NCBI RefSeq assembly: GCF_021917145.1
Contig: NC_061077.1
Location: 7,437,298-7,501,297 of the forward strand
DNA length: 64,000 bases
Direction of reading: 5' to 3'
Origin: Hypomesus transpacificus
Lineage: Eukaryota; Chordata; Actinopteri; Osmeriformes; Osmeridae
This document shows positions 18,101 to 21,100 of the stretch, piece by piece. The translations under genes were made by a program, and so were the position numbers. The notes beneath the pieces are model-generated. The model was not told where the DNA came from, ran no database searches, and worked only from the letters and a program-made list of their open reading frames with translations. Every line of letters starts with the position of its first letter. Position 1 is the first letter of the stretch.

Positions 18101-21100
18101 CTTGACCTCTCCTCACCTCTACTCTCTTCACCTCTCTTCTATTTTCCTCTCCTCACCTCTCCTCTCTTGACCTCTCCTCACCTCTCCTCTATTCTCCTCT
18201 CCTCACCTCTCCTCTCTTCACCTCTCCTCACCTCTACTCTCCTCATCTCTCCTCTTTTTACCTCTCCTCACCTCTCCTCTATTCTCCTCTCCTCACCTCT
18301 CCTCTCTTCACCTCTCCTCACCTCTACTCTCCTCACCTCTCCTCTTTTTACCTCTCCTCACCTCTCCTCTCCTTTTCTCATGTCTGTGCTCTTCTCTAAG
18401 GTGTTCCACCGGGGAGCAGTGGCAGGAGATCATGCTGTCTGCCCTGCCAGGCAGGCGCTGTGACCCGGAGTCAGACTTCGAGCCTGGGGAGGAGTTCACC
18501 TGCGGCAGCAACCTGGCCTACCTCTACTTCATCAGCTTCTTCATGCTCTGTGCTTTCCTGGTGAGAGAGCAACCCTGGGCTCATTTCCCTCTCATTTCAC
18601 TGAATAGGGTTCACTGAATGTTCCTCTCAGGTCCTGAATTGGAGCTCAGTTTTAACTGGTTCTGTCTTTTTGTGTCTGTGTCCCTCTACTCAGATCATTA
18701 ACTTGTTTATTGCTGTCATCATGGACAACTTTGAGTACTTAACAAGAGACTGGACTGTGTTGGGAACCCATCACCTGGACGAGTTTAAGAGGGTGTGGTC
18801 TGACTACGACCCTGAAGCCACGTAAGACTGTTCTCATTTCTTTTTCTTACCTTTAGTCAACTCACTCCCAGGTATACAGTGATGATTGTTAATACATGCT
18901 GTTTTGGTCAACTTGTTTCAGGGGTCGAATCAAACACATTGATGTGGTCACCTTACTGCGCAGGATCCAACCTCCTCTTGGTTTTGGCAAGCTGTGTCCC
19001 CATCGTGTGGCCTGCAAGGTAACACACACCCATCAAGAGGGCCACTAACTTGAAAAGAGTCAAATAGACTTGATAAATCTATATTTTAATGCATACAAAA
19101 AATTATGAAAAAAAAACTGCATGGTGTGGTACATGCATATTGTAATGGACTCCCAGGACAGAGGGTACCGGATCCAAGTGCAGGTTTTATTAGGCGTCGT
19201 CAGGCAAGCAGAGGTCACACAGATAAATCAGAGCAAGAGAGGAGATCTGAAAGAGTTAGTCAGGTGACAAGCGCAGGTCTGGCAGGGGAGGACTGGTCAA
19301 ATGAAGGCAAAAGCTGGCTCAGGTTCCACGGATCAGGCAAGGTCGGGATCACAGCATCTAGGATTAATCCAGGTAAAGCAGAGACAAGTTTGGGGGCAAA
19401 AACAAGGTCAGTATTTCGAAGTATCTCTGTCAGAAATGGTCAGCAGGAGATCAACAAGACTTAGCAAGGAGTGAAGGGAGTGACTAGCTTAAAAACACTG
19501 AGTACTGAAGTAGGGTAGTGGACTGATTACTCTTACAGTGTGTAGGTGTGAGAGATGGCGTGCCCTCTTAGTACTCTGGTGATAATATTCTGAGGCAGGG
19601 GGACCTGACTGTCACACATATGTCTTCCACCCAAAATCTGCAGCACATACGGTCAGATGAACACTATCTCCCATAGTCACTCTTGGTTTTCTTATGTGAG
19701 CACCTGACAAATTCACCCTGGCAGTCCTATTTCCTCCTTCAGTCTGGCCTGTCTGTCCTCGTCTTCCCTCTGCCAATCCAATTAGGAGCCCCCATGCCCC
19801 CTTTTTCTCTTTCCTTCCTTCCTCTCTCATTATCATCTCATCTGCTTGTTCCGTCAGAGGCTTGTTGCTATGAACGTGCCACTACATAGTGACGGGACAG
19901 TCACCTTCAACGCCACTCTGTTTGCCCTTGTCCGGACCTCACTCAAGATCAAGACTGAAGGTTAGCCCCTTAGCACGCAAGGCAATAACCCCACAACCCC
20001 AGCTTTCACACACAAACACACACACATAACACAACAGATTCCACAGTCCATTAAAACCAGCCACCTATGTGACTCCTGAACCTTAATCTCTCGACTAGGG
20101 CCTATTGATCAAGAGAACGAGGAGTTAAAGGCAGTTATTAAGAAGATATGGAAGCGCACTAAGCCCAAGCTCCTGGATGAAGTCATCCCACCCCCTAGAG
20201 GTAAACCTCAGCACTTACAACTTTCACCACGCAGATCCGAGGCCTTCTGAAGATATTTTTGTATTCATCCTCCATTCTTCTATTTGTTGTCCTCTCTCAC
20301 TTTATTCTGATTTCCTCACACCTCTCTCTCTTGTTCAGGGGACGAGGTGACATGTGGGAAGTTCTATGCCAGCTTCCTTATCCAGGACTACTTCAAAAAG
20401 TTCCGCAGGAGGAAGGAGAGGGAGAGGAAGAAGAAGGGGAAGGACAAATCTGCTGCTCTGCAGGCGGGCCTGCGCACGCTGCAGGACCTGGCTCCTGAGA
20501 TGCGCCTGGCCATGGTCTGTGACCTGGAGGATGAAGAAGGGTTTGAAGGAGAGGTGGATGAAGAGTTTTTGAGGGTGAGAAGAGCTTTCGTAGACTTTTA
20601 ACTGTCCATCCGATTACTACGGAAAGAGCTTTGTCATCTGAAACGTATCAAATGATTGCGATCATATTAAGTGCTAACTATTGCGTGAACTCTGTGGTTT
20701 TTATTCGGGCTCATTCCGGATCTAGAATGACAACGTTTTTGATGGTGGAGAGCCTGGCACCTCTGTTACCATGACCCCTGCCGCCACCCCCCATGCCCCC
20801 ACATGAGATGGAGGAGGTTAGTGTGTTCATCGAGCCTGAGCCCAAGGAGGTAATTGACGAGGTGATCACAGAGCAGGTGATGGGCATGTCTGAGGACCAG
20901 AGACCAGAGTCCCAGGTGTCAAATTTCAACGTTGTTGTGGAGCAGCCCCAGAGATCTGATCCTGTCCCTAACAGGTGTGTATGTGTGACTGTGTGTGAAA
21001 ATTATGCATATTCACCCTCTATATTTTCGAGTTAATTTCCTTGCTTTTTCATAATATTGTTTTGTTCTGCTCAAATAGGATGGACTCAGTTCAAGAAATG

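Follow-up and report, generated by a model that had tools for sequence, protein, structure and literature searches.

We identified a reading-frame conflict in one tail exon of an L-type calcium channel alpha1 (Cav1) gene, likely cacna1f (Cav1.4), in a 64,000-nt stretch of Hypomesus transpacificus DNA (the window). The exon, at 20726-20974, is very likely a single normal coding exon that lies one single-nucleotide indel away from a readable form, and such an indel would explain the observations in one step. The indel would consist of one extra base or two missing bases somewhere in 20775-20803, a priori in the C-rich stretch. As to its origin, our judgement leans towards a sequencing, consensus or assembly slip, which is the likeliest single outcome but is not proven. 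A real recent allele, either polymorphic or newly fixed, is in our judgement a less likely but still serious candidate.

Frame conflict within the tail exon

The landmarks of the conflict listed in a preliminary description of this DNA are all present in the letters. The preceding exon ends at 20574 (AGG/GTGAGA) in phase 0, the acceptor at 20718-20725 ends in a TAG at 20723-20725, and the entry frame from 20726 closes at a TGA at 20804-20806, after a run of six Cs (C6) at 20787-20792. The downstream frame reads ATG-GAG-GAG at 20808 and is itself stopped by a TGA at 20772-20774. No single frame therefore runs across 20726-20974, as the upstream TGA closes the downstream frame and the later TGA closes the entry frame. 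The features of this region are as follows.

20339..20574, + strand: exon covering the last part of the IQ domain and the first part of the tail, leaving in phase 0 (Pfam Ca_chan_IQ, CAC1F_C positions 1-35; splice model)
20575..20725, + strand: intron with a GT donor (score 4.6) and a TAG acceptor (score -0.7)
20726..20974, + strand: tail exon with the frame break, 249 nt long although its flanking phases call for 2 mod 3 (open homologous exon L016:3879-4144, 266 nt)
20726..20803, + strand: first part of this exon, open in the entry frame for 26 residues (codon score)
20775..20803, + strand: interval of the frame change, with C6 at 20787-20792 and C5 at 20796-20800 (bounded by the TGAs at 20772-20774 and 20804-20806)
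20808..20974, + strand: second part of this exon, open in the downstream frame, leaving in phase 2 (codon score)
21079-21315, 21441-21898, 21991-22433 and 22772-22973, + strand: four further tail exons, open in the downstream frame (splice model, Pfam CAC1F_C)

The flanking phases, 0 on entry and 2 on exit, require an exon length of 2 mod 3, so the 249 nt observed represent one extra base or two missing ones. Codon usage, in a test trained on the rest of the same gene alone, supports coding on both sides of the break. The first part (20726-20803) scores +10.1 in the entry frame ("NDNVF") and -2.3 and -21.7 in the other frames, and the second part (20808-20974) scores +27.1 in the downstream frame ("MEEV") and -23.8 and -33.0 in the others. 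As a control, the true frame was best in 46 of 47 windows of 78 nt taken from other exons, and the conflict thus exceeds chance. Among 108 intron windows, five had an open frame scoring at least 10.1, although unmodelled linker exons may lie in some intron windows; in a downstream stretch that had not been curated, the count was five of 509 windows. These scores and controls indicate that 20726-20803 resembles the 5' portion of a normal coding exon and not the noncoding poison segment that had been suggested.

A one-base indel in the C-rich stretch was among the explanations offered initially, and it is the one best supported by exon length and phases relative to a second gene copy and by codon usage. 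The accompanying observation that loss of one C joins both parts into one frame is correct. Codon usage cannot place the indel, however, because its position likelihood is nearly flat across 20774-20804 (32.6 to 38.2), and the C6 run is thus favoured by its nature only. This run is one of only two runs of at least six identical bases in 5,869 nt of modelled exon. The other, a G7 of the same gene (22173-22179), lies in frame, which counts against the indel reading in that not every homopolymer in the record is faulty. The assembly (437 Mb, 376 contigs) was also searched for another copy of the locus as an independent reading of the stretch, but the stretch occurs in it only once.

The tail beyond the break appears intact. 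It matches the CAC1F_C profile (PF16885) at positions 167-358 of 362 with 203.4 bits, compared with 37.2 bits before the break (cut-off 26.6), and it also matches Cav1.3 and Cav1.2 tails in PDB. A tail of about 1,500 nt that has long gone untranslated is expected to gather stops and indels, and none were seen in the approximately 1,500 nt of downstream tail. That 501 downstream codons, including a conserved last exon, remain open implies a break that is recent, artefactual or bypassed. As a rough estimate at general mutation rates, the open tail would put any truncation at no more than a few million years old. Separately, the tail exon at 21441-21898 contains an Asn/Gly-rich repeat, in place of which the second copy has only a short NYGNGYNDG stretch.

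Gene model, gene identity and the second copy

The gene model was built from PDB matches in three frames, tblastn against the second copy and splice-site joining. It is partial: between 7543 and 22973 it comprises 38 exons totalling 5,869 nt, with its 5' end (it starts at 7543) and its I-II and II-III linkers incomplete. At least one phase-compatible GT-AG pair joins 36 of the 38 neighbouring anchor pairs. The two exceptions are 20770/20805, which is the break, and 11329/12037 in the I-II linker, where exons are absent from the model. Open codons number 787 from 14071 to 20574 and 501 after the break, and the anchors before 14071 are open too. The frame break at 20775-20803 is the only one within the 38 modelled exons. 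A decaying pseudogene, which would be expected to carry several disabling changes, is not supported by this count, which covers the modelled exons.

Minor-class introns may also be present in this gene. Positions 7701-7804, between EWK and PFDIF, look like an AT-AC intron, with an ATATCCTT donor, TCCTTAAC and an AC end, and such an intron better explains the anchor pair 7698/7806, one of the 36. Similarly, 13155-13335, between CGN and Y-ILLN, looks like a minor-class GT-AG intron with an GTATCCTTTT donor, and an intron starting GTATCCTTTT better explains the pair 13153/13338, also among the 36. Minor introns are named for voltage-gated channel genes in published abstracts. At 839 nt, the intron preceding the RLVAMN exon (19019-19857) is long for that part of the gene, and by eye it may hold a repeat insert at about 19150-19620.

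The assignment to the L-type alpha1 family is firm: phmmer searches in three reading frames ranked Cav1.3, Cav1.2 and Cav1.1 chains at the top, and an IQ domain (PF08763, 28.9 bits, cut-off 26.7) is followed by the CAC1F_C tail. The assignment to cacna1f is likely, judging from its closest similarity being to the second copy, an RGRLLY tail motif that also occurs in the human Cav1.4 exon 47 peptide, and a nearby PET-domain gene (28.4 bits, cut-off 25) and MARVEL-like ORF, the latter below its cut-off (24.9 of 32.8). These neighbours and the shared motif fit human CACNA1F synteny. In the one direct comparison with a 1D-like gene, however, the human exon 47 peptide ties, with 30.0 bits against the window gene and 30.0 bits against a 1D-like gene, and no Cav1.4 chain was among the PDB matches. 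Of the two such genes in zebrafish, one is found in photoreceptors and the other in the inner retina (PMC8370914). Within the excerpts of the literature on cacna1fb and on C-terminal calcium-dependent inactivation of teleost Cav1.4, nothing was found on this tail exon, which is no proof of absence.

A second L-type copy lies in the same genome at 2.94 Mb on contig C18 and was read over its last part only. For locus L018, the minus strand was read. The last exon of the second copy is 79% identical to that of the window gene over 48 matched residues, whereas the three remaining hits reach 60%, 57% and 44%. Downstream of its IQ region, the second copy carries an open exon of 266 nt (L016:3879-4144) that is entered in phase 0 and left in phase 2. 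The first ten bases of this exon are identical to those at 20726 (AATGACAACG). Because the two exons share this start, their place and their flanking phases, 20726 is probably an inherited exon start, and the 20725/20726 acceptor is very probably the right one. Beyond those ten bases the two exons align poorly, a point against the indel reading. In four other L-type genes of the same genome, the corresponding piece follows an R and reads (N or A)GGLFG (three of four aligned), indicating that the position of the exon is shared, its sequence less so.

Several other features of the second copy were observed. The 30 kb upstream of it gave no match to any window exon preceding 17189, among the matches listed (30-bit limit, low-complexity filter). 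The copy thus lacks its 5' part upstream, and a gap of 500 Ns (L023:9155-9654) ends seven bases before the first matching exon. One of its introns holds an open frame of 349 codons (L016:4536-5582) that resembles a Tc1-type transposase. Four L-type alpha1 tails lie on the same 15-Mb contig, C18, at 2.94, 7.46, 12.04 and 14.81 Mb, an arrangement unexpected for copies from whole-genome duplication unless chromosomes fused or the assembly joined them.

Splicing and other explanations of the conflict

An alternative to the indel is an acceptor inside the exon, at 20807/20808 or at a later in-frame AG, that makes a long channel either alone or regulated against a short form from 20726. This is improbable. 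Joining 20574 to 20808 does preserve the frame, as the preliminary description had pointed out, and the 20726 acceptor (-0.7) is the weakest of the 35 in the model, which weighs against the indel reading as well. GAG acceptors are listed in human genes, CACNA1A included (PMC2374985), and human Cav1.4 tail exons show acceptor choice (Ex45a-, in frame) alongside the truncating variant Ex43* (PMC8370969). Pfam was tried as a referee between the two splice forms and scored them alike, at 40.7 and 40.5 bits; this leaves room for the inner acceptor and does not help the indel reading. The site at 20808 is nevertheless weak. With weights from standard tables and not from a trained model, this GAG scores -5.6, compared with -0.7 to 9.2 for the 35 model acceptors, whose base at -3 is C in 25, T in nine, A in one and never G. 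AGs scoring at least as well make up 49% of 325 in exon interiors and 57% of 304 in introns. Nor is it the sole in-frame candidate: 16 further AGs in 20808-20974 sit in the right frame and half of them (8/16) outscore it, although the in-frame CAG sites at 20877, 20901, 20916, 20946 and 20952 (-3.8 to -0.9) have no better support and the later AGs would remove more of the coding-like exon. The segment to be skipped is itself coding-like and begins like the second-copy exon, which is open without any such skip. The second acceptor first put forward, at 20801-20807, would drop this shared start and is accordingly a weak proposal. More improbable still is a regulated switch between two acceptors 82 nt apart, in which the upstream one would give a short channel with strong calcium-dependent inactivation and the downstream one a long channel. 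If true, a frame change within one conserved exon would be the means by which this fish tunes a retinal-type Cav1 channel. Support for a tandem alternative 3' splice site was also sought, in the form of a downstream acceptor that combines a usable YAG with a pyrimidine tract, but 20808 follows a GAG scoring -5.6. Other splicing routes were rejected. For a micro-intron of at least 60 nt within the exon, the best phase-compatible pair reached -22.2 once penalties were included (the two sites alone gave -13.2), and the end of the NDN anchor yielded no phase-compatible pair. Skipping 20726-20974 loses the frame, as the preceding exon leaves in phase 0 and the following one is entered in phase 2, and alternative donors in 20726-20803 (GTs after 20734, 20744 and 20764) give phases 0, 1 and 0 where 2 is needed.

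Two further alternatives were considered. Long disuse should leave stops and indels in a tail. An old, fixed stop, leaving the fish with nothing but a truncated channel from this gene, agrees with the letters when the best-supported splice sites are used, but it is very improbable given the 501 open downstream codons, the 203.4-bit CAC1F_C match and the 79% identity of the last exon to the second copy over 48 residues. It is extremely improbable that ribosomes slip by +1, either within the C-rich stretch or at the TGA, and continue translation. The needed shift is indeed +1, a CCC codon and then a C precede the switch, and correction of "savior" indels by frameshifting is named in the literature (PMC5009743); however, the second-copy exon is open, and nothing requires frameshifting if the indel is an error.

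Origin of the probable indel and comparison with known systems

Between the two origins of a single-nucleotide indel, the view that the TGA is real and truncates the channel agrees with the letters, but as a recent allele it ranks below a record error. Real frameshift alleles are common in outbred animals. Such an allele would end the channel 26 residues into exon 20726-20974 and would remove the tail parts that oppose calcium-dependent inactivation in mammalian Cav1.4. Alternative splicing is known to produce truncated forms in mammals, and in human Cav1.4 loss of this part in Ex43* or by skipping of exon 47 results in pronounced calcium-dependent inactivation and activation at more negative voltages (PMC8370969). 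The mechanism of the change in calcium-dependent inactivation in Cav1.4 tail-loss variants has also been described (PMC8054141). By analogy, a real truncating allele would be expected to act like these human variants.

If the indel is a record error, the channel would lose about 500 residues in automatic annotation, and the entry needs checking. If it is a real allele, it would represent a natural loss of the inactivation-restraining tail from a visual-system channel type, in a fish with at least part of a second copy. Neither outcome alters the general picture of Cav1.4 biology.

The favoured reading, a record error, resembles the homopolymer indel errors of long-read assemblies, which likewise involve a one-nucleotide change in a homopolymer-rich coding stretch of an otherwise open gene, although the accounts drawn on here cover bacterial or small genomes (PMC8812927, PMC12007338). 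Similar to human Cav1.4 Ex43*, the stop in the window falls a short way past the IQ region and would remove the C-terminal modulator. However, as reported for the human channel, Ex43* arises from a novel exon in retinal mRNA, whereas the window stop arises from a frame change inside a conserved exon and is known from DNA letters (PMC8370969). In the Cav1.3 43S form, splicing at exon 43 also gives a short tail without the modulator, but 43S keeps the proximal regulatory motif and is seen in brain transcripts, whereas the candidate acceptor in the window is poor (PMC3194279).
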